Shown here piece by piece: positions 7,019 to 25,232 of a DNA stretch of 29,689 bases. The number at the start of each line of letters is the position of its first letter. Position 1 is the first letter of the stretch. Source of the DNA: Candidatus Abyssobacteria bacterium SURF_5 (GTDB lineage: Bacteria; Abyssobacteria; SURF-5); NCBI GenBank assembly GCA_003598085.1, contig QZKU01000054.1:1-29689 (forward strand), in the 5' to 3' direction. Made by a program: the position numbers and the translations under genes. A model generated the notes under the pieces. That model made no database searches. It worked only from the letters and a program-made list of their open reading frames with translations, and was not told the origin of the DNA.

Positions 7019-7768
7019 CTACACCAGATGAATTCCGAAGAGCAGGAGGAGGGTGAGGCTGCCAACGGCAAGGGCCAGCCAATCCCTCTGTTTCATGCAT
7101 ACCTGCAGATAGAAGGTTCGCTTTCCGCGGGCGCCGAACCCGCGCGCCTCGAGCGCCATCGCCATCAAATTCGCGTTGCGGATCGACACAAGAAAAATGG
7201 GCGCCATGAGGGGAATATAGTTCTTCATCCGCTGCCAGAGGGGGCCCTTCCGAAGTTCAAGTCCACGGCTCTTCTGAGCCTCGGCGACTGTCAGGCCGGT
7301 TTGCGCGAAAGTGGGAACCAGCCGGAGCGCCAGCGAAAAAGCGAAACATGCCACATACGGCGCCCCGAGCCTGACGAGGCCGGCGGTTATCTCTTCGTTT
7401 CGGGTGGTTACCAGGAAGATCATGCCCGCAATCAGGATTCCGGCGATCTTGACCGCCGCCAATACGCCGTGCATGAACGAATCGCGCCTGATGAAGAGCC
7501 ACAGGATATCTTCACCGCGCGGAATCATGATCCAGAGGATGATGGTGAATATGGTGATGACGATAATGAAGTTTCGCAGCCGCCTGATCGCATCCCATGC
7601 GCGCGCAAGCGAGGCATGGACCGCGATCAATGCAAACGAGCCAAGCGCCGAGGGGAGCAAGGAAGGGATCAGCATGATAAAGAAAGCGGCTATGAGGAGG
7701 AACAATTTGACTCGCGGGTCGAGTCGATGGATTATGGTCTCCCTTTCTTCGTACAGGTACGGGTTCAT
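7019..7768 (-). CDS. ecfT: ECF transporter transmembrane (T) component
   Basis: A 249-residue CbiQ/EcfT-family membrane protein that couples the ATPases to a substrate-binding S component. The start region RETIIHRLDPRVKLFLLI is typical of the family (the ...DPR.K motif before the first helix). Four to five hydrophobic helices follow. The conserved cytoplasmic coupling region includes EAQKSRGLELRKGP and MALEARGFGARGKR, the two short Ala-Arg-Gly motifs that contact the ATPases. ATG 7768 overlaps the stop of the ATPase gene as ATGA, so translation is coupled, and GAAGGAA precedes it. This is the last gene of the operon; no clear terminator follows. Confidence 0.93.
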   Translation of the reverse strand: MNPYLYEERETIIHRLDPRVKLFLLIAAFFIMLIPSLLPSALGSFALIAVHASLARAWDAIRRLRNFIIVITIFTIILWIMIPRGEDILWLFIRRDSFMHGVLAAVKIAGILIAGMIFLVTTRNEEITAGLVRLGAPYVACFAFSLALRLVPTFAQTGLTVAEAQKSRGLELRKGPLWQRMKNYIPLMAPIFLVSIRNANLMAMALEARGFGARGKRTFYLQVCMKQRDWLALAVGSLTLLLLFGIHLV

Positions 7769-9546
7769 TTTCCTTCTTCCCGCTGCTTTCTCAAGACTTT
7801 CAGCCAGTCGGCGTTGTCGGGGTCGGCATCCAGGTTGATGACCGGCTGCGCGCATTGCAGGAACTCTTCGACCGAAAGCATTGTGAGGCCGAGGCGGTTG
7901 CTGAACGAGACGATCTGCGGCGCCCTGACGTCGGCCCGTGCAAGCAGGCTCTCGTCGGCGAATATCTCTCTTGCCGGTCCGTCGGCGACAATTTTTCCAG
8001 CTTTTATCAAGATGATTCTGTGCGCATACTGCGCCGCGATCCAGATACAGTGGGTGATGATAATGATGGTGTGTCCGGCGTCGTTGAGTCGCTTGATGAG
8101 CCCCATCATCTGTTTCAGCTCGCCGTAATCCAAGCCGGTGGTCGGCTCATCCATGACGATGATGGATGGTCTTGTTGCGAGCACCGAAGCGACCGCCACT
8201 TTCTGTCGGAGCCCTTTGGGGAGTGTGAACGGGTCTTCCAGCCGCCGCTCCCACAGGCCGACCGTTTCGAGCGCATCGTGCGCCTGCTGCCGGGCTTGCT
8301 CGGGCGCAATTCCCATGTTCTGCGGGCCGAAGAGCACCTCTTCCAGAATCGTTTCCTTGAAAATCTGGTGGTCGGGGTTCTGGAACACGTAGCCGACTTC
8401 CCGCGCAAGAACACCGGCTGAAAGATTCGTGGTGCTTCTTCCGCCGACCCTCACGTTCCCTTGCCCGGGCTTCAGGAGGCCGTTCAGCAGTTTGGCGAGC
8501 GTGGTTTTGCCGCTCCCGTTCTGCCCGAGGATTGCGATAAATTCGCCGTCCTTTACCTGGAGGCTCACGCCGTCGAGCGCCTTCATTCCAGCGTCGTAGC
8601 TGAAAGAAACGTCTTCTACCTCGATCCGGAGCCGGTCGACAGGACGAACCCTCGTTTGGTCAGCGGCTGCAAGGATTTCGCGGGCGCGCCGACGAAACTG
8701 CAAGCCGTGTTTTTGCCAGAGATCGAGCGCCTCCTCTACAGTGAGCGGCAGTTCACCGGCGCCGAGTTTATTGAATGATTCCGTCACCTGGAGCGGCATG
8801 ACGCTGCACTGTTCGAGCAGGGGAATGTTTCGAAGGATGACGGCGGGCGGACCATCGGCAACTATTCGACCACCGCGCATGAGCAGAATACGATCGGCCT
8901 TCAGCGCCTCCTCGGTCTCATGCTCGGCAATGATAAGGATCTCTTTCCCGGCGAGTTTTTCCGTAATCGAGAAAATGCGGCGCTTGTTTTTCGGGTCCAG
9001 ATCGGTTGTCGGCTCGTCGAAGCAGAGGACTTTCGGCTGGAGCGAAAGCGCCGACGCGATCGCCAGCAGCTGCTTTTGTCCGCCGGAAAGCGTGCCTGGC
9101 TGGCGTCTGCGCAAGGCTTCAATACCCGTCATTTCGAGCGCCCACTGGATTCTGTGACCGATTTCATCGCGGGATATTCCCGCGTTTTCGGGTCCGAATG
9201 CTATCTCCAACTCGACAGATGTCGAAAAAAGCTGCGACTCGAAATCCTGAAATACGAGACCCACGTGCGGGAAAAAATCCTTGACGGAGTTTTCGTGCGT
9301 CTCCATATCGCACACGCGGACTGAGCCTTTGAAGTCCCCCTTCATCAGGTGCGGGATCAATCCATTCAGTGTAAAGCAGAATGTCGATTTGCCCCCCTCG
9401 TTCGGCCCCATGAGCACGACGAATTCACCTTCATCGATTTGAAGGCTAATATCTTTTAGAACAGGGGAAGGAGAACGTCGATATCGGAAGGAAAGCGAAT
9501 GTATGTCGATCAAGGGCTGTTGCATCTTTGGCGCGGACGATCGCAT
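7765..9546 (-). CDS. fused double ATPase of an ECF transporter
   Basis: A 593-residue protein with two ABC ATPase domains in one chain, replacing separate EcfA1 and EcfA2. Domain one (about 10-235) has Walker A GPNEGGKST (47-55), signature LSGGQ and Walker B VLCFDEPTTDLD. Domain two (about 310-560) has Walker A GQNGSGKTT and Walker B IIVMDEPTTGLD, but its signature reads LPKGLRQ instead of LSGGQ. One composite ATP site may therefore be weakened. Translation probably starts at ATG 9546, which overlaps the stop of the S-component gene by one base; ATG 9525 (MQQPLIDI) is the alternative. No strong ribosome site is seen, in keeping with coupling. Confidence 0.93.
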   Translation of the reverse strand: MRSSAPKMQQPLIDIHSLSFRYRRSPSPVLKDISLQIDEGEFVVLMGPNEGGKSTFCFTLNGLIPHLMKGDFKGSVRVCDMETHENSVKDFFPHVGLVFQDFESQLFSTSVELEIAFGPENAGISRDEIGHRIQWALEMTGIEALRRRQPGTLSGGQKQLLAIASALSLQPKVLCFDEPTTDLDPKNKRRIFSITEKLAGKEILIIAEHETEEALKADRILLMRGGRIVADGPPAVILRNIPLLEQCSVMPLQVTESFNKLGAGELPLTVEEALDLWQKHGLQFRRRAREILAAADQTRVRPVDRLRIEVEDVSFSYDAGMKALDGVSLQVKDGEFIAILGQNGSGKTTLAKLLNGLLKPGQGNVRVGGRSTTNLSAGVLAREVGYVFQNPDHQIFKETILEEVLFGPQNMGIAPEQARQQAHDALETVGLWERRLEDPFTLPKGLRQKVAVASVLATRPSIIVMDEPTTGLDYGELKQMMGLIKRLNDAGHTIIIITHCIWIAAQYAHRIILIKAGKIVADGPAREIFADESLLARADVRAPQIVSFSNRLGLTMLSVEEFLQCAQPVINLDADPDNADWLKVLRKQREEGK

Positions 9547-16565: not shown

Positions 16566-17819
16566 TTAATTCTTACGCGCCTCCCGCTCGACAGATCGCA
16601 ATGCGATCTTCCCCCCTATGAGTGAAAAAAATGCCCCCGAGCTGTCGGCGAATATCGCCTCAAGCGGACTTTTGTCTTGTTCTTCTTTTCCTGCGCCAAC
16701 TCGTATGACGGTTATATCGGCGGGGCGGCCCGGCCGGAGCAACTCTTCTTCATGAGGGAGCGAGAGCGCTCTTAATCCATTGAGTGTCGCCATCTTCAGA
16801 ATATCAATCGATGATACTCCCGAATAGGATCGTCTCAGCGCCTTCATCTCGTCGAGGACGCTCAGCGATGGGCTGCTGGCGAGACTGTCCGTCCCAATCG
16901 CCACGTTGATTCCCCATTGAAGCATGGCTTCCACCGGATGCCGGCGATGGCGAAAATACTGGTGGCTCCTGGGACAGAATACAACTGAAGAGCCCGATGC
17001 GGCGATAATCTTCAGATCATTCTCATCAGCATAATTGCAGTGCACCAGAACGGCAGGCCGATCCAGTCCCCCAAGATCCCGAAAATATTCGACCGGTGTC
17101 TTTTTCGGGGGTGTCCATCCCGGCGGCATGCCCAATTCCTCTCGAAATCGCCTCAGCTCACCGGTGCCTTCCCGAAGGAACTCGAGCTCGGGAACGGTTT
17201 CCCCCAAATGAATGCAAAGAGGGGCTGAGATGCTGTGACCCAGTGAGACGCACTGCCGCAATAGTTCTTCCGATACCGTATAGGGGGAGTGGGGTGATAT
17301 CCCCGCCAGCATGCATCCGTTTGTCGGATGCTCCGCCAGATTTCTTTTTAAGGCAGCGCTTGTTTTATCAGCCGTATGGGAATCGAAGTTGATAACTTCG
17401 TAATACGCTCGTCCCTGCAGGGGGAATTCAGAATAAGCGGCGCCGTCCGCCTGCCGGATGATATCGCCGGCCGCAGTGGTTCCGCATGCCACACTCTGCT
17501 GGATTCCATCGCGGAGCGATTGCGAAAAATAGTCGATCTCCCATTGGCTTGTCACGCTGATGATCGTGCGGATCCAGTTCGTAAAGAGAGGCTGTGGTCG
17601 AAAGCAATTTTGCGCCAGCGTCAGTTCCAGATGAGTATGCGCATTGACCAGACCGGGAATGAGGATGCTGTCATCGCCCAAGTCGATACATTCTTCAGGC
17701 GGAAAGGCGGGTGCGTCTCCACAATCCATGGCGGCAATATATCCGCCTGAAATCGTCAGATACACATTTTCTTCAATGCGGCCGGAGCAGTCAATCAGGT
17801 GCTTGCAGCGGATGATCAT
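16566..17819 (-). CDS. amidohydrolase: adenosine-type (MTA/SAH or aminofutalosine) deaminase
   Basis: A 417-residue deaminase of the TrzN/MtaD/MqnX branch. Metal ligands are visible in NAHTHLE (HxH), CIHLGET, VLVHCNY and GTDSLASSPSL, the last being very characteristic of this branch. It should convert the 6-amino group of an adenosine derivative to the inosine form. ATG 17819 overlaps the stop of the phosphorylase as ATGA and is preferred; ATG 17831 would add four residues. Its partner is an MTAP-family phosphorylase, so deamination of 5'-methylthioadenosine or 5'-deoxyadenosine followed by phosphorolysis is the likeliest pathway. Aminofutalosine deamination in menaquinone synthesis is the alternative; no other futalosine gene is in the window. 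Confidence 0.86.
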   Translation of the reverse strand: MIIRCKHLIDCSGRIEENVYLTISGGYIAAMDCGDAPAFPPEECIDLGDDSILIPGLVNAHTHLELTLAQNCFRPQPLFTNWIRTIISVTSQWEIDYFSQSLRDGIQQSVACGTTAAGDIIRQADGAAYSEFPLQGRAYYEVINFDSHTADKTSAALKRNLAEHPTNGCMLAGISPHSPYTVSEELLRQCVSLGHSISAPLCIHLGETVPELEFLREGTGELRRFREELGMPPGWTPPKKTPVEYFRDLGGLDRPAVLVHCNYADENDLKIIAASGSSVVFCPRSHQYFRHRRHPVEAMLQWGINVAIGTDSLASSPSLSVLDEMKALRRSYSGVSSIDILKMATLNGLRALSLPHEEELLRPGRPADITVIRVGAGKEEQDKSPLEAIFADSSGAFFSLIGGKIALRSVEREARKN

Positions 17820-18679
17820 GTTCGAATCCATTCGCGCCAGTTCTCGCCGATGACTCCCCGGTCTCGATACCGCTGCATCAAGCTTGCACAGGAGCAGGTC
17901 GGTTCCGAATTTCGAGTCGCTTTCGCCATCATTCCCGCTATTGCCGGAAACGCCTTGACACTTGCCTCAATGGCTTCAAATTCGGCTTCGCTTGTTAACC
18001 CTTCAAAAAGGATTCCCGGACGAAACGGTTTTTTCCTAATGCCTTCTGCGTAGTTGGTGACATAGCAGAGAGCCGCATAACAGATTTCCAATTCGCGCGC
18101 AAGGAAGACTTCAGGCGCCAAAGTCATCCCGACAAGATGAGCGCCGTATGCCGCAAACTTTCTTATCTCCGCCGGCGTTTCCAGTCGGGGTCCTTCCGTG
18201 CAGACATAGGTGCCGCCCGCGTCGTATTTCAAGCCGAGATCTGCGAGGATTTGTTCGAGCAACCCGCGAAGGTGGGGACAGAAAACCGGGTTCTGGCGTA
18301 TGAAACCCAGTCCTCCGTGTTCATAAAACGTGGCCGGCCTGCGGCGGGTCTCATCGATGATGTCGTCGATAACGATGAATTGTCCAATGGCGAATTCGAC
18401 TGTTATCGCGCCAGGTCCGGACCACGCAATGATCTGTCTCACCCCAAGGTCTTTGAGCGCGTATATGTTCGCCCGGTAATTCACGAATGAAGCCGCAACC
18501 GAGTATCCGGTTTCGCCATGGCGTGAAAGAAAAAGATAATCAGAGTCATTGGAACGAATCAGGTGAACGGGTTGACTTTTTCCGAAGGGTGTCTGAAGCG
18601 GGCCGATCGTTTTTCGACCGGACTTTTGGTCGAGAAATCTAAAGGCTTGGCTGCCGCCGATAACAGCGAACCGCGGCAT
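17816..18679 (-). CDS. MTAP-family purine nucleoside phosphorylase
   Basis: A 287-residue phosphorylase that would split a 5'-modified purine nucleoside with phosphate. The start IGGSQAF gives the phosphate loop (IGGS, 7-10). RHG near residue 60 and NYRANIYALKDLGV are family hallmarks, with EGPRLETPAEI and VGMTLAPEVFLARELEICYA lining the substrate site. I chose ATG 18679 because family members begin right at the IGGS strand; ATG 18769 would add 30 mostly charged residues with no counterpart. Coupling to a deaminase suggests action on a methylthioinosine- or deoxyinosine-type product, as known for the bacterial methylthioinosine phosphorylase route. Confidence 0.88.
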   Translation of the reverse strand: MPRFAVIGGSQAFRFLDQKSGRKTIGPLQTPFGKSQPVHLIRSNDSDYLFLSRHGETGYSVAASFVNYRANIYALKDLGVRQIIAWSGPGAITVEFAIGQFIVIDDIIDETRRRPATFYEHGGLGFIRQNPVFCPHLRGLLEQILADLGLKYDAGGTYVCTEGPRLETPAEIRKFAAYGAHLVGMTLAPEVFLARELEICYAALCYVTNYAEGIRKKPFRPGILFEGLTSEAEFEAIEASVKAFPAIAGMMAKATRNSEPTCSCASLMQRYRDRGVIGENWREWIRT

Positions 18680-18720
18680 ATCACTGGAATGGGCGGAACG
18701 GGTCGGGACGCTTCTGCGCC

Positions 18721-18744
18721 GGGAAGAGCTTTTCTTCTCTTCCC
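18721..18744 (-). other. hairpin just upstream of the phosphorylase start
   Basis: GGGAAGAG and CTCTTCCC are perfect 8-base arms around an 8-base loop, about 40 bases before ATG 18679 in the transcript. No T-run follows. It could protect the mRNA end or gate translation. It is also inside the frame of the longer start form, so it could be incidental. Confidence 0.35.
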
Positions 18745-18798
18745 GCCCCCCTGGCTTATCTTTCATCATCCGGCAATCAATTTTCTCTACGGCCCGAG

Positions 18799-19400: not shown

Positions 19401-20030
19401 CTATTTCTGCCGGTCCAACTTGACGCGCGTGCTGATAAAGACGTGATCGGTCTCAATCGAGTAAGCGAGGCCGGTCTGATCGCAAATGCGAACGATTATC
19501 TTTCTCAATGAGGTATCTTCGTCGACTCGCAGAGATATCTTAGGGTCCAATACCTTGTTATCGTCTCGAAACACCGTGTCGTCGACGATAATGTTGACAT
19601 CGGTAAGGAAAGTCAACGATTTCGCCACGCTCTGAATGTCTTTTCCTTCAAAATCGACCCGGATTAACTGGTTGAGCTTCTGGTAAAATTCGTCCTGAGC
19701 TTCTCCCTGTTCCTCGATTTCCTCGATGACCGTTTTGCACGTCGCAATCGATTCATCCACCATCCGATCGAGCCCATGCGGCCGCTCTTCCGGCAGGTTC
19801 GGATACTCTTGCCAAATCCGCTCATAAGCGTTTAGGGCCTCCCGATATTTCCGCAAGGCAAGCGCGTAGTCCTTTTCCTCCAAAGCTTTCATGGCTTCTT
19901 CTTCGAGCGGCTTGGCCTCGTGCAAAAAACAGAAGAGAGCCGATCTTTCGACTTCAAAAGCAGCCGCTCTTGTCGCAAATCCCGGCAGCAGAAGCGTTAT
20001 CGCCATCAGGACAAGCAAGGATCTTCTCAT
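19401..20030 (-). CDS. exported protein with helical repeat and STN (secretin-type) domain
   Basis: A 209-residue protein. Residues 1-24 are a signal peptide (MRRSLLVLMAITLLLPGFAT then RAAAF). Residues about 36-80 look like a TPR-type helix pair (EEKDYALALRKYREALNAYE). Residues about 122-209 match the short N-terminal domain of secretins and TonB receptors (VDFEGKDIQSVAKSLTFLTD, then ISLRVDEDTSLRKIIVRIC and a final HVFIST strand). It would sit in the periplasm. No secretin channel domain follows. Its start overlaps the stop of the PHP gene as ATGA, so the two are translationally coupled. Confidence 0.78.
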   Translation of the reverse strand: MRRSLLVLMAITLLLPGFATRAAAFEVERSALFCFLHEAKPLEEEAMKALEEKDYALALRKYREALNAYERIWQEYPNLPEERPHGLDRMVDESIATCKTVIEEIEEQGEAQDEFYQKLNQLIRVDFEGKDIQSVAKSLTFLTDVNIIVDDTVFRDDNKVLDPKISLRVDEDTSLRKIIVRICDQTGLAYSIETDHVFISTRVKLDRQK

Positions 20031-20731
20031 CGTTTACCGTTCCATAGATGTCGCAGGCTTCCGTACAGTACATCGACTACGTGTTCGACACCGTGTCGTG
20101 TGAACTTCCTTAAGTTCAACGGTGTCGCAGCGATCTGCACACGTCCCCGTTTGACGGCATCGATAATAGCGTCGGTGTCCTTCTCTGCTTCAACGAGCGA
20201 ATAAGCAGAACCGAAGTTCGGCAAATGATGGCAGTCGGAGGAGCATACAAGCGGCATATTATATCGCAACGCCACATTAACTGCAAAGGTATTGAAGTTG
20301 ATGTTGTCGTTGAAGAACCAGGAATATTCGAGCGCGTCGAAAAGATCGATGTTTTTGCGGACGTGCCAGAGCAACGATGCGAGACCGGGGAAGAATGGGT
20401 GCGGAGCTACCACCAGGTTGGATCGGTTTTTCAGGTTTTTTATGTCCGCGAATGTGCGCGCCGAAAGAAATTTCTCTTGTGCATTTACGATGAGCACATG
20501 TTTCCCGTGAACCGTGATTTCCGCTCCCGGAATGAGAATGATGCCCCGCTCAGCGGCGTAATCACGCAGGTAACTGTTGAAACAAATGCCGTTATGATTC
20601 GTGACGCTCAAAGCGTCGTACCCGAGAAGATGTGCTCTGTCGATGAGTTGGCAACTGGTATGGCGGATAGGCTCTTCCGGATCTTCGGCCGTATGGGTAT
20701 GGAAATCTGTCTTTAAAAGCTTTGTTGCCAT
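20027..20731 (-). CDS. PHP-domain metal-dependent phosphoesterase
   Basis: A 234-residue cytoplasmic protein of the PHP family. Metal ligands are visible in DFHTHT (His11, His13), VTNHNG, the glutamate of PGAEITV, APHPFF, and SSDCHHLPNFGSAY. Stand-alone PHP enzymes hydrolyse phosphate monoesters or nucleotides; the substrate is unknown here. ATG 20731 is preferred, because the upstream in-frame TTG at 20767 overlaps the predicted -10 box. It heads a two-gene operon with the STN protein and is divergent from the pseudokinase operon, which suggests but does not prove a link. Confidence 0.86.
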   Translation of the reverse strand: MATKLLKTDFHTHTAEDPEEPIRHTSCQLIDRAHLLGYDALSVTNHNGICFNSYLRDYAAERGIILIPGAEITVHGKHVLIVNAQEKFLSARTFADIKNLKNRSNLVVAPHPFFPGLASLLWHVRKNIDLFDALEYSWFFNDNINFNTFAVNVALRYNMPLVCSSDCHHLPNFGSAYSLVEAEKDTDAIIDAVKRGRVQIAATPLNLRKFTRHGVEHVVDVLYGSLRHLWNGKR

Positions 20732-20766
20732 TATTCTTGGAAACTCGCCCGAGAAATAATGATTCA

Positions 20767-20795
20767 ATTGTAGTTCAGTTTCTCTTCCTTGTCAA
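20767..20795 (-). promoter_or_regulatory. near-consensus promoter of the PHP/STN operon
   Basis: TTGACA (20795-20790), a 17-base spacer and TACAAT (20772-20767) on the minus strand. Predicted transcription start is near 20760. Confidence 0.72.
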
Positions 20796-20855: not shown

Positions 20856-20890
20856 TTGACATTGACAAGAAACCGTTTATGCACTATAAT
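20856..20890 (+). promoter_or_regulatory. perfect consensus sigma-70 promoter with doubled -35 box
   Basis: TTGACA occurs twice in tandem (20856-20861 and 20862-20867). The second is exactly 17 bases from a perfect TATAAT (20885-20890). Predicted start is near 20897. This is the strongest promoter in the window and drives the pseudokinase/FHA/propeller operon. Confidence 0.85.
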
Positions 20891-20928
20891 CTCCAATTAT
20901 GAATGGCAAGCAAATGCTCGGGGGTTCC

Positions 20929-23073
20929 ATGTTTCATATCGGCCAGTGGATTGACAACCAGTACCAGGTGCTGGAAAAATTGGTCAGCCGCTGGTGGATC
21001 CAGTATGTGGTTCAGGACCGCATCTCGGGAAACACTTTTCTTGTCAAGCGGTTTTCCGATGTGATCCTTCTGGACGAATCCGCACGTATTCGATTTGAGG
21101 CAAAAGCTAAAATTTGGATCGGCCTCAGCGAAGGCGATGAAACGGTAAAAGCCTTCATGGTCAAAGAATACGGAGGGATTCCACATATTTTTATTGAATA
21201 TGTCGCGGGTCCGACTCTGGCGACCATATTCAATGCCGCTTCCGGCAAGGCGCTGCCGTTGGAACAAACAGCCGCCTTGATGAAACAGTTGGTCAGCGCA
21301 ATGAAAGTGCTCCACAACGCCAGCCTTTTCGAACAGAGCGGCAGCGTGATCCACGGCGGCTTGAACCCGCAGGTGATCCTGCTCCATGACGGGAACGTCA
21401 GGATAACCGATATCGGTTTTGCGCCTGTCATCCATCAAGCTGCGAAGACGAAAAATATGAGCTTGTTCAAGAATGAAATACAGTATCTGGCGCCGGAACA
21501 GCTCCGCGACCCTGCCTCCGCAAATGAATTGACCGATATCTATGCATTTGGCGCAATCATGTATGAGGCGGCGACGGGCACTACGCCGCCGGTTGTCAAA
21601 AAGACGCAGGATCCTCTGCATGAATTCATTGCCGTCGCACCTGTTGCCCCGCGTCTGAGAAACCGGTCCTGCCCCCAGTGGCTCGAAGAAACCATCCTCA
21701 AATGCATGGCGAGAGACCCGCAGAACCGATTTCAAACGTTTGACCACATCGCCGATTTTCTTGCTCAGTTGCTGGATTCGGGGAGGTTGCCGCATAAGCT
21801 GGAGGTCGAAGAGGAGGGTGGCTCGGCTTCCAGAGTAGCTCGGATCCGCGGAGTTGCAAAGAAAGAGTCGCGCAGGCTGAACCACTATTACATTGGCGTC
21901 GAGCACATGATGCTGGGCCTGCTCGCCGAGGAAGAAAGCCTGGTGGTCAGCTGCTTTGGCGATCAATATACCGCTCCTCAAATACGCTCCGAATTGTTTG
22001 ACCGCCTGCCGAAAGGCGAGGGACCGTGGTACTGGGACGGTATTATCAAGACGCCACGGTACAAGAACATCATGAAATCGGCGCGAATCATCAAACGCGA
22101 GTTTGGTCATGAACGGATGCTTCCGCAACATGTGCTCCTCGCAATACTCGAGGAAGGCAAAAACGTGCCTGTTCGCGCTTTGAAAGAAATGAATATTGAC
22201 GTAAAAGCCGCTGCCGACTACCTGCGACAGGAATTCATACAAAAAATTCCCGCTTTTTGCCCAAATGATCCCGATACCCCCCTCGGCAAATGCGCCCGAA
22301 AACTTGTGTGTGCAAGATATCTTCCTGACACGATTCCTTTTATCAACCGGAAAGACGAGCTTCAGGCGGCGGTTCATTCGATACTCGACAGCCGAAGAAG
22401 CGTAATTCTGAATGGCCCGCCCGGCATCGGCAAAAAGGCCTTCGTCCGCGAGCTCGAGTGCCACCTCGAGCAAACCTGCCAGGATAACGGCATACCCTAC
22501 GGAGGAATGTACGAGCTGAGAAAAGCCGACTTGCTTTCGGTAACCGAAGATGACGAGCAGAGAGAGGAACTTTTCCTGAATCTGATTACCTCTGTAATTG
22601 GATTCAATGGCATCCTCGCCGTGGAAGGACTCGATGTGCTTATCGGAATAGGCGCGCGCGCTCGAATCGGTTTTATTGCGGAAATCATGACAAGTTATCT
22701 CGACTCAAATGACCTTATTATTGTGGCCACGACGACTCCGGAAGGGGTGGAATCGTGCGAAATGGAGTCGAAAGAAATACTTTCCCATTTTGACGTGATC
22801 AACCTGTCAGAGCCGTCCGCGGAGACAGTTATGGAAATCCTGTCCGCCGCCAAAGATGTCTTGGAAGTGGAGCATTCGTTCACTATTGAACCGGATGCTC
22901 TTGCAGCCGTAATGGAGCTTTCCGGCCGTTTCGCCGAGCCGGCGTTTCCGGCAAGAGCGCTGGAGGTGCTTGATCGCACATGCATCTTCGCCAAACTGTC
23001 CGGGAATTCTCAGAAAGGTGTGATTGATTCAGAATCCGTAACCGAGTTTATCGCCGCCTGCTCACAAGGTTAG
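20929..23073 (+). CDS. pseudokinase / Clp-N / degenerate AAA fusion protein
   Basis: A 714-residue protein. Residues about 4-285 have the protein kinase fold: lysine in FLVKRF (Lys40), TDIGF (Asp161, the DFG site), YLAPEQL and TDIYAFGAIMYE. The catalytic loop reads HGGLNP (142-147) instead of HRDLKP, so the base Asp and the Lys are missing, and the glycine loop (LVSRWWIQYV) is absent; it is probably a pseudokinase. Residues about 300-440 resemble two Clp N-repeats (YIGVEHMMLGLL; LPQHVLLAILEEG). Residues about 460-700 resemble the Clp D1 AAA domain, but Walker A is GPPGIGKK (Lys503 for Thr/Ser) and Walker B is VEGLD, lacking the DE pair. ATG 20929 is preferred (GGGGG five bases upstream); ATG 20899 would sit at the transcript end. 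An FHA gene follows after six bases. Confidence 0.85.
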   Translation: MFHIGQWIDNQYQVLEKLVSRWWIQYVVQDRISGNTFLVKRFSDVILLDESARIRFEAKAKIWIGLSEGDETVKAFMVKEYGGIPHIFIEYVAGPTLATIFNAASGKALPLEQTAALMKQLVSAMKVLHNASLFEQSGSVIHGGLNPQVILLHDGNVRITDIGFAPVIHQAAKTKNMSLFKNEIQYLAPEQLRDPASANELTDIYAFGAIMYEAATGTTPPVVKKTQDPLHEFIAVAPVAPRLRNRSCPQWLEETILKCMARDPQNRFQTFDHIADFLAQLLDSGRLPHKLEVEEEGGSASRVARIRGVAKKESRRLNHYYIGVEHMMLGLLAEEESLVVSCFGDQYTAPQIRSELFDRLPKGEGPWYWDGIIKTPRYKNIMKSARIIKREFGHERMLPQHVLLAILEEGKNVPVRALKEMNIDVKAAADYLRQEFIQKIPAFCPNDPDTPLGKCARKLVCARYLPDTIPFINRKDELQAAVHSILDSRRSVILNGPPGIGKKAFVRELECHLEQTCQDNGIPYGGMYELRKADLLSVTEDDEQREELFLNLITSVIGFNGILAVEGLDVLIGIGARARIGFIAEIMTSYLDSNDLIIVATTTPEGVESCEMESKEILSHFDVINLSEPSAETVMEILSAAKDVLEVEHSFTIEPDALAAVMELSGRFAEPAFPARALEVLDRTCIFAKLSGNSQKGVIDSESVTEFIAACSQG

Positions 23074-23079
23074 TTCGCC

Positions 23080-23457
23080 ATGATGGATGAAGGACCCCTG
23101 AATGAAGCTCAGTCAGTCAATGCTGCAAAATCTTCCTCCAGGAGAATAGGCAGGTTTGTGATCGAGATCATGAACGGACCGGAAGACGGTCGCATCATCG
23201 AATGCCGGGAATTCCCGATCACGATCGGTCGAGCGAGTGACAACATCGTCCATCTTCCCTATGACCATCTTATTTCCAGGCATCATGCCACGATTGAAAG
23301 GGAAGGCGACTCGCTTACCCTCACTGATTTGAAGAGCACAAACGGGACCTTTTTTCGCGAACACAAGGTTCAGGGGCAGGTTGCCATTGATTTGAATAAA
23401 TTGTTACGAGTCGGAGCCACCCTCTTAACCGTCAGGCTCCGCTCCGTAAAAGGATAA
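23080..23457 (+). CDS. stand-alone FHA-domain protein
   Basis: A 125-residue cytoplasmic protein that is almost only an FHA domain, which binds phosphothreonine peptides. The key residues are intact: IGR with Arg51, SRHHA with Ser66 and His69, and STNGTF with Asn88. Binding competence is therefore expected. The first 25 residues are Ser/Arg-rich and flexible. It starts six bases after the pseudokinase stop, and AAGGT upstream of ATG 23080 serves as ribosome site. In known systems FHA proteins act with Ser/Thr kinases. Here the local kinase looks inactive, so the phosphate donor may be elsewhere. Confidence 0.94.
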   Translation: MMDEGPLNEAQSVNAAKSSSRRIGRFVIEIMNGPEDGRIIECREFPITIGRASDNIVHLPYDHLISRHHATIEREGDSLTLTDLKSTNGTFFREHKVQGQVAIDLNKLLRVGATLLTVRLRSVKG

Positions 23458-23498
23458 GTTCCGCCTCAAGGCCGCCTCCCGTAGGCAAACCGCGTGCG

Positions 23499-25232
23499 AT
23501 GCCAGAAGAGCGACAGGAACAGAGACTTTTTCGCCGCAAGCTTCCGTGCGCCAACCATCAATTTATTGCCGCAGCCGCGCATTGCGACATCTGCGGCAGG
23601 CCTATCTGCAAGGACTGCATCCGTTACTACGGCGGCGAGCATATCTGCAGCGCCGAGTGCTGGACCCAGAAAATCGCGCAAGACTCTCTCCATATGTTTG
23701 CGGCCTACCGCAGAAAATCGAAATTCAAGCTGGGCGCCCTCATAGGACTTGCGGCAAGCATCTGTTTATTGATCGGGCTCTCATTTTTTTTCATTTACTC
23801 AAAGATGGAACGCCCGGGCGCCAGGCTCTGGGAGCTGAAATATTCGCCCCAATGTTTCGGATATAAAATCGTGCCATCCATAGACACGGTTTTTGTAATG
23901 AAAGACGATAATACGGTGCAAGCCGTCGACACGAATTCCGGAAAACAGCGATGGCTGGCCCATCTGCCGGAGGAACACAAGGGCTGCCGGCTTACTGCCT
24001 TCGATTCAGGGCGCGCCTTTGTTGATTTTTCCGGAAAGCTCCTCCTCCTCAATTCGGTCGAAACGAGGCCGGCATGGGAATACGCTCTACCGCAGCCGGA
24101 CCTGTCCGCTTCCCTGGTGTTTTCGAACGAAACGCTTTTTCTTTCCTCTTCATCCGCCGGACCTCGGGGCGGATATTCCTCCCGCCGAGCGCGTGCAGAT
24201 TCGCGGGGGAACCGGGTTCAAGAAGGAGACGCGCCGGCCTCGATGATATCCGCGGTCGAAGCAGGCACGGGTAAGGAAATATGGGCCTTTCCTGCAGAAG
24301 AAGTCGTTGTCAATGATCTGTTCCTGGTTGATGCGACCCTCTATGGATTTGGAGAAAGAGCCGTTTCTCTCCCGGCGTCCGAAGAAGCGTCACCCGCCGG
24401 ACAGAAAACGGAAAATGATCTGAATGCCGGCTCAGCATTGCTTGCGCTTGATCCCCATACTGGTTTCCTGAGATGGCAAACGGATTTGGATGGCGGGTGC
24501 GTTCTTCCACCGATGCCGATCCCGCAAGGTTTTCTTATTGCTACAAGGGAATCGATTTCCCTGATTTCCTTGAGCGGGAGTGTCCTGTGGCAACACCCCC
24601 TTGCCCAACAGACTGTATTGTCACTTGATTATTCAGATGGGCTCCTGTTCGTGCTTTCACAGGATGGTCTGCTCTCGTGTATCGAGGCCGACAGCGGATT
24701 GCGGAAATGGATGGCGGACGTCCGCCTCGCGACGGGCCGCCTCTTTACCGCTTCTCAATATGTATATGTTTGCGGGCGGAGAGAGCATAAGCCGAAACCT
24801 CCAAAGACCGCTGTGCACAATCCGCCATTTCCCGAAATTGCGGGATCATCCTCCCAATTGGATCCGGATATCTTCACGTTGACTGAGGCAACCACGGAAA
24901 AGGTGCTGTGCGGGCTGGATATGGCTTCAGGTGAGGAGTTTATCTCGAGAACCCTTCAAGGGAATCTCCACTTCTTGAATGGAGCCGTGTATGCGCTTTC
25001 GCTGCTGCACTGGGAAAATAATTCGGAAATGCCAGTTGATCCCCCTCAAGATATTGCCCCTCTCTCGGCGCTTTCTGCATATGAATTATCGACGGGTGTG
25101 AAGAAATGGGAAATACTCATAGACGGAGCAGCTTCCGATGTTCATGTCTCGGGTTCTGTCGCCATAGTGAAAGTTGTGCCGTTGGATGGTTCCGATCAAT
25201 CGCCTCGCTTGATCGGTTTTTCACTCAGGTGA
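23499..25232 (+). CDS. zinc-finger, one-pass membrane protein with PQQ-type beta-propeller
   Basis: A 577-residue protein in three parts. Residues 17-54 form a B-box-like zinc finger (C17-x2-H20, CDIC, CKDC, H48, C50, C54). Residues about 78-100 are one membrane helix preceded by RRKSKFK, so the finger should be inside and the rest outside. Residues about 105-577 hold about eight PQQ/BamB-type blades, each with a turn like DTNSGKQRW, EAGTGKEIW, DPHTGFLRW, EADSGLRKW or ELSTGVKKW. No quinoprotein catalytic residues are evident, so a binding or scaffold role is likely. It is 41 bases downstream of the FHA gene in the same operon. The ribosome site at ATG 23499 is weak. Confidence 0.85.
   Translation: MPEERQEQRLFRRKLPCANHQFIAAAAHCDICGRPICKDCIRYYGGEHICSAECWTQKIAQDSLHMFAAYRRKSKFKLGALIGLAASICLLIGLSFFFIYSKMERPGARLWELKYSPQCFGYKIVPSIDTVFVMKDDNTVQAVDTNSGKQRWLAHLPEEHKGCRLTAFDSGRAFVDFSGKLLLLNSVETRPAWEYALPQPDLSASLVFSNETLFLSSSSAGPRGGYSSRRARADSRGNRVQEGDAPASMISAVEAGTGKEIWAFPAEEVVVNDLFLVDATLYGFGERAVSLPASEEASPAGQKTENDLNAGSALLALDPHTGFLRWQTDLDGGCVLPPMPIPQGFLIATRESISLISLSGSVLWQHPLAQQTVLSLDYSDGLLFVLSQDGLLSCIEADSGLRKWMADVRLATGRLFTASQYVYVCGRREHKPKPPKTAVHNPPFPEIAGSSSQLDPDIFTLTEATTEKVLCGLDMASGEEFISRTLQGNLHFLNGAVYALSLLHWENNSEMPVDPPQDIAPLSALSAYELSTGVKKWEILIDGAASDVHVSGSVAIVKVVPLDGSDQSPRLIGFSLR

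Follow-up and report, generated by a model that had tools for sequence, protein, structure and literature searches.

A predicted pseudokinase–Clp_N–AAA fusion encoded with FHA and B-box-propeller proteins in Candidatus Abyssobacteria, and its possible role beside membrane proteolysis

Introduction

What would a bacterial cell do with a protein in which a kinase fold, Clp_N repeats and a Clp-type AAA domain are joined, when residues of both catalytic domains have been lost? The question is raised by a stretch of 29,689 nucleotides from Candidatus Abyssobacteria bacterium SURF_5 (contig QZKU01000054.1 of assembly GCA_003598085.1), which is called the window below. Three plus-strand genes at 20929–25232 stand there behind one promoter and encode this fusion (gene 1), an FHA protein (gene 2) and a protein composed of a B-box-like finger, a transmembrane (TM) helix and a beta-propeller (gene 3). 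A preliminary description had placed the three genes behind a perfect consensus promoter and had read them as a transmembrane scaffold or signalling relay; their place, their strand and the promoter, which is matched in relatives, were all confirmed. The phylum was sampled with three genomes from three genera of one family, namely the window's own genome (G000) and two relatives (G001 and G002), and residues of the fusion are counted from the ATG at 20899 throughout. The answer preferred here, held tentatively and with somewhat less than even confidence, is that the gene set would be a membrane-tethered, phospho-gated adaptor, in which Clp_N gathers clients for rhomboid- and ClpC-linked membrane proteolysis.

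Domains and Catalytic State of the Fusion

First of all, gene 1 gives profile matches to Pkinase (E-value 1.7e-19), to two Clp_N repeats (4.9e-16), to AAA_lid_9 and to the ClpA/ClpC D1 model TIGR02639 (5.9e-20), and its modelled AAA domain matches ClpC in structure (Z-score 23.9, root-mean-square deviation 3.2, 259 aligned residues, residues 452–724), which supports the kinase–Clp_N–Clp-type AAA order described earlier. The AlphaFold model of the fusion was built from an alignment of three rows; its kinase part is poor (predicted local distance difference test of 25–50), and the AAA part alone is usable. Orthologs in G001 and G002 are 45–46% identical to the window copy. An assembly chimera was rejected, the same fusion being present in three separate genomes, and conservation across the three likewise excludes a chance neighbourhood. 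That is to say, the search across genomes that the preliminary description had proposed found a fusion that is no assembly error and neighbours that are conserved in the relatives.

In the kinase domain, the three fusions have Gly, Val or Asn where the HRD Asp should stand (HGG, HGV and HGN), while this Asp is present in all 30 of the other kinases inspected across the three genomes. No glycine loop remains around an invariant Trp; the beta3 Lys50 and the DFG Asp171 (DIG in the window copy) are kept in all three fusions. When a pseudokinase is defined by the loss of at least one of the VAIK Lys, the HRD Asp and the DFG Asp, the fusion falls into this class through its HRD Asp, and the kinase domain is thus a predicted pseudokinase. 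Another kinase of the window's genome touches on the same subject: at 7603–8907 of locus L042 (contig C67, minus strand), a protein of 434 amino acids joins a kinase with HRDLTPAN and an intact-looking DFG to a weak Clp_N repeat. This protein appears active from its motifs and is possibly a partner or cousin of the window fusion; the tree gave no resolution on whether the pseudokinase originated from this paralog.

The AAA D1 domain retains the Walker A Lys, while the Walker B DE has become EG or ED across the three orthologs and the arginine-finger pair RR has become SH, AR or QC. Clp_N repeats followed by an HSP100 D1 are shared with ClpC and ClpA, but the working Walker B and arginine fingers that characterise D1 of these proteins are missing. 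The fusion ends after D1, lacking D2 and the ClpP loop, and the structural match omits about 55–60 residues at the site of the ClpC M-domain, which is absent. The earlier claim that both active sites look degenerate therefore stands for the HRD Asp, the Walker B DE and the arginine fingers, but not for the beta3 Lys, the DFG Asp and the Walker A Lys. Three further changes are found in the window copy only (Val for the catalytic-loop Asn, Lys for the Walker A Thr, and Gly at the second Walker B position), the fusions of the relatives keeping Walker A and the catalytic-loop Asn.

Identity between orthologs differs by domain, with 62–64% in Clp_N, 47–57% in the kinase and 31–43% in the AAA large domain. 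The drift of the window copy is greatest in the AAA domain (31–33%, against 43% between the relatives), and there is no extra drift in Clp_N. Since it is the most conserved domain and has not drifted in the window copy, Clp_N is likely the working part of the fusion. ClpC has two phosphoarginine (pArg) sites, E32 and E106 (PMC12583610); in the alignment with ClpC, Glu335 of the fusion corresponds to E32 (pArg2) and is kept, and Gln410 stands at E106 (pArg1) in all three fusions. In each of the three genomes mcsB immediately precedes clpC, and because of this adjacency phosphoarginine marking is probably present in these cells.

The FHA Reader and the Membrane Propeller

Gene 2 carries the whole set of phosphothreonine-binding motif residues (GR, SRHH and STNGT), as the preliminary description had noted, and these are invariant in the three orthologs except for one His to Arg change in G002. 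The orthologs adjoin the fusion in both relatives and are 52–53% identical. From its motif residues, gene 2 is a predicted phosphothreonine reader. A second FHA protein of 253–257 amino acids lies beside a ClpB-like gene in each genome (G000:C94:9187-13482, G001:C251:25185-28404 and G002:C29:35641-39300), and this FHA–Hsp100 neighbourhood is distinct from the fusion locus.

Gene 3 matches the PQQ_2/BamB propeller (E-value 9.8e-21) and contains one TM helix and a B-box-like finger. The eight residues of a two-zinc set in the finger (C17, H20, C29, C32, C37, C40, C50 and C54) are invariant, so that the finger is a predicted B-box-like zinc binder, although its score against the B-box Pfam model is 16.9 bits for the window copy and 23.6 bits for that of G001, with a gathering cut-off of 24.1. 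The positive flank of the TM helix is cytoplasmic and the finger lies on the cytoplasmic side. In fold, the propeller matches BamB (Z-score about 19) and YxaL (18.9); the model has about 36 strands, which would make 8 or 9 blades. The cytoplasmic finger, the TM helix and the propeller described earlier were thus all recovered, but the count of eight blades is uncertain. The window gene 3 is a divergent copy, with 31% identity to gene 3 of G001.

The Five-Gene Unit in Relatives and Its Split in the Window's Genome

In all three genomes the fusion, the FHA gene and the B-box-propeller gene follow the same order; upstream of them stand a consensus promoter, at the same place in each, and the divergent PHP gene. 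In G001 (locus L041) and G002 (L040), two further genes lie downstream, gene 4 for a B-box-TM-TPR protein and gene 5 for a rhomboid that carries TPRs at its C-terminus, so that the full order is fusion, FHA, B-box-TM-propeller, B-box-TM-TPR, rhomboid-TPR. The motifs GASGA (with the GxSG serine) and AHIGG (with the catalytic His) are invariant, and by these motifs the rhomboid active site in gene 5 of the relatives is intact. The three-gene system of the preliminary description is therefore kept in three genera, but it is only a fragment of a five-gene unit.

In the window's genome, genes 4 and 5 follow a second propeller gene on contig C87, and the window itself holds no rhomboid. The second B-box-TM-propeller gene is 39–40% identical to gene 3 of G001 and is interrupted, its pieces lying at L074 7444–8173 and L073 8024–9483, at the right ends of contigs C68 and C87. 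Both contigs end inside a shared inverted terminal repeat with near-identical ends GGTTCTTCTCC...GGAGAAGAACC, and an 8-base direct repeat GGAAAGTA flanks this inverted repeat on both as a target duplication. From the shared inverted terminal repeat and the direct repeat, the interruption is attributed to an insertion element; presumably a duplication of 8 bases would agree with an ISL3-type element. Since the window copy of gene 3 is 31% identical to that of G001, against 39–40% for the interrupted copy, and genes 4 and 5 lie on C87, the gene 3 of the window is the divergent paralog and a split of the module has taken place in this lineage. Being split and partly decayed there, the module may function in the window's genome with no rhomboid in its operon.

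Proposed Mechanism and Alternative Explanations

In the preferred mechanism, the window genes would form one half, cytoplasmic and sensory, of a membrane module that is specific to the phylum, and the fusion would be a non-catalytic adaptor, its ClpC-type N domain serving to bind clients or segments marked with phosphoarginine. The pseudokinase would provide a docking surface and be phosphorylated by an active Hanks kinase of the cell, and the FHA protein would then read phosphothreonine on it. Anchoring at the inner membrane would fall to the B-box fingers of both single-pass proteins (genes 3 and 4), and on the outside partners would be sensed or bound by the propeller and TPR domains. The rhomboid would cut the clients so recruited or else the membrane proteins of the complex, and the products would go to McsB–ClpC–ClpP. 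The link to proteostasis in the preliminary description is strengthened by the intact rhomboid of the relatives, by the second B-box membrane protein and by mcsB–clpC in the three genomes; its scaffold or relay reading gains in part, from the degeneracy of both catalytic domains and from the conserved loss of the HRD Asp and conserved trio. A bolder and rather doubtful extension is that the set would represent a class of quality-control receptor in the membrane, where the fusion of a dead kinase with a dead Hsp100 ring domain would make a single phospho-gated adaptor that feeds clients to a rhomboid; the kinase of the relatives, which is SelO-like in having the Lys, the catalytic-loop Asn and the DFG Asp without the HRD Asp, might carry out non-canonical nucleotide transfer.

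Several points weigh against this mechanism. The Gln at E106 may mean that phosphoarginine binding by the fusion is lost, and the intact Walker A and catalytic-loop Asn of the relatives make nucleotide binding or an unusual activity possible. In G000, genes 4 and 5 are on another contig and need not act with genes 1–3. The ortholog set consists of three members, which makes the tests of conservation weak. Finally, gene content and order, domains, catalytic residues and membrane topology are observed, but a physical complex, which protein phosphorylates which, the handling of clients and the direction of signalling are what we infer.

The alternative that survives best, with a smaller though still appreciable probability, is an envelope-stress relay without proteolysis, in which the propeller would sense the periplasm, the B-box tail would signal to the pseudokinase–FHA pair controlling an active kinase, and the Clp part would only oligomerise. 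Propeller-bearing receptor kinases exist, such as PknD and AfsK, and gene 1 and gene 3 each give a match to the AfsK model; a scaffold role is common among pseudokinases, and genes 1–3 alone persist together in the window's genome. However, the most conserved part of the fusion is Clp_N, the client-binding domain in ClpC, and in the relatives a rhomboid and a second B-box protein are added, both of which speak against such a relay.

It is unlikely that the fusion is a decoy or inhibitor that would regulate ClpCP at the membrane by using its N domain and dead D1 to co-assemble with ClpC or to compete for the substrates of ClpC. Such a role would agree with the derivation of both domains from a ClpC-type protein, with mcsB–clpC in all three genomes and with the one phosphoarginine glutamate that is kept, but a conserved hexamer interface is hard to reconcile with an AAA large domain that shares so little identity between orthologs, and all three fusions carry Gln at the E106 site, which also counts against this role.

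An equally improbable explanation is that the locus in the window's genome is a decaying remnant with little function. The branch of the window fusion is long (0.61, against 0.36 and 0.39), the copy has the extra losses given above (its Walker B pair being Glu-Gly), and the closer gene 3 copy elsewhere has been cut by the insertion element. On the other side, the three reading frames are open behind a perfect-consensus promoter, none of the FHA residues or zinc ligands has been lost, and the constraint on Clp_N in the window copy equals that in the relatives.

An anti-phage defence module is highly improbable and was set aside: the PADLOC kinase models PD-T4-6 and MAD6 match gene 1, but these matches span the generic kinase fold only, genes 2 and 3 have none, the neighbouring genes are metabolic, and synteny at the locus extends over three genera. 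The tie to type VI secretion raised by the preliminary description, that is, a PpkA–Fha–ClpV phosphothreonine pathway, has next to no probability left, for although kinase, FHA and Clp-type domains are adjacent and there are weak matches to TagH and ClpV models, the AAA domain is ClpC-like and degenerate, and sheath-based secretion is ruled out by the absence of VipB/TssC, for which all three genomes were negative and E. coli was positive in the same run.

Distribution and Comparison with Known Systems

Outside the phylum, 386 genomes were searched for the kinase–AAA fusion and the B-box-propeller, the best 2–3 candidates per genome being scored, so that rare distant copies may escape; within this scope there was no fusion spanning kinase to AAA, and no B-box-propeller of the gene 3 type at an E-value of 1e-25. 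No full-length match to the rhomboid-TPR protein of the relatives was found in these 386 genomes either, and a named genome collection searched for the fusion gave plain kinases only. All the parts come from known families. Literature searches found no described case of such a gene set or combination within open-access papers, in agreement with the preliminary description, which knew of no such system.

Among known systems, the MviN pseudokinase of the ActPs3 family in Mycobacterium tuberculosis recruits FhaA through the FHA domain of the latter (PMC12599244), which resembles the present locus in that a pseudokinase and an FHA protein are paired at the membrane in a scaffold role. MviN, however, also lacks the VAIK and DFG motifs and is provided with a TM region of its own, whereas the fusion keeps the Lys and the DFG Asp and is joined to Clp_N–AAA; all three catalytic motifs are degraded in ActPs3, and with Lys50 and Asp171 kept the fusion stands outside that family. 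In Bacillus subtilis, the rhomboid YqgP is an adaptor of the AAA protease FtsH (PMC7231995), so that a rhomboid and an AAA-type partner meet in membrane protein quality control there too, but the AAA part here is a degenerate ClpC D1 without protease, and FHA, pseudokinase and B-box proteins are added. The fusion is similar to the McsB–ClpC–ClpP system in its ClpC-like Clp_N and D1, in one of the two phosphoarginine glutamates and in sharing its genomes with mcsB–clpC, and differs from it in the absence of the M-domain, D2, the ClpP loop and the arginine fingers, in the Gln at E106 and in the fused pseudokinase. Prokaryotic B-boxes have been linked to membrane protein folding, stability and proteolysis (Burroughs et al. 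2011, as cited in PMC4506424); B-box fingers on membrane proteins beside a rhomboid fit this picture, while the tie to a pseudokinase–ClpC fusion and an FHA protein, together with the large outer propeller, sets the present case apart. Finally, gene 3 shares the propeller fold of BamB and YxaL, but it lacks the N-terminal lipoprotein signal of BamB and is anchored by a TM helix after the cytoplasmic zinc finger, rather than being a lipoprotein of the BAM complex.

Promoter, Gene Start and Neighbouring Genes

The features of the locus are collected in Table 1. At the position equivalent to the window promoter, G001 and G002 carry TTGACT-17-TATAAT, and because a near-identical promoter stands at the same place in both relatives, it is not a chance match. 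The preliminary description had begun gene 1 at 20899; the locus was right, but the ATG at 20929 is the likelier start, because the expected transcription start lies within a few bases of the ATG at 20899 and nearly overlaps it, while that at 20929 is preceded by the purine-rich GGGGGT and aligns with the gene 1 starts of the relatives. The longer gene 1 reading frames of the relatives extend into their own promoters.

Table 1. Features of the fusion locus (positions in the window; residues of gene 1 counted from the ATG at 20899)
Feature	Position	Strand	Remarks
PHP-family metallohydrolase gene, divergent	20027–20767	−	adjoins the fusion in 3/3 genomes
Sigma-70 promoter, TTGACA-17-TATAAT	20862–20890	+	12/12 consensus matches, 17-nucleotide spacer
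Gene 1, predicted pseudokinase – two Clp_N – ClpC-type AAA D1	20929–23073	+	714 amino acids likely; longest open reading frame from 20899, 724 amino acids
Predicted pseudokinase domain	20941–21783	+	residues 15–295; HGGLNPQV instead of HRDxKPxN
Two Clp_N repeats	21826–22248	+	residues 310–450; most conserved part of the fusion
ClpC-type AAA D1	22333–23061	+	residues 479–721; Walker A GPPGIGKK
Gene 2, single FHA domain	23080–23457	+	FHA profile, E-value 7.3e-15
Gene 3, B-box-like finger – TM – PQQ/BamB-like beta-propeller	23499–25232	+	finger residues 17–54, TM 81–99

Any link of the PHP gene to the gene set would be putative. Together with a gene for an exported protein of 209 amino acids with a weak secretin-N0-like domain it occupies 19401–20767, and both lie beside the fusion in G001 too. 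Phosphorylase and amidohydrolase genes stand upstream in the window (16566–18769) and downstream of the rhomboid in G001; judged from this shift, a gene block seems to have been rearranged inside a partly conserved neighbourhood.

Conclusions

Bacterial pseudokinases and bacterial rhomboids are for the most part without known function, and the operon described here would tie Hanks-type phosphorylation to membrane proteolysis in a form that can be tested. In addition, the fusion would be a natural case in which ClpC has lost its motor to decay but retained the N domain that binds clients.

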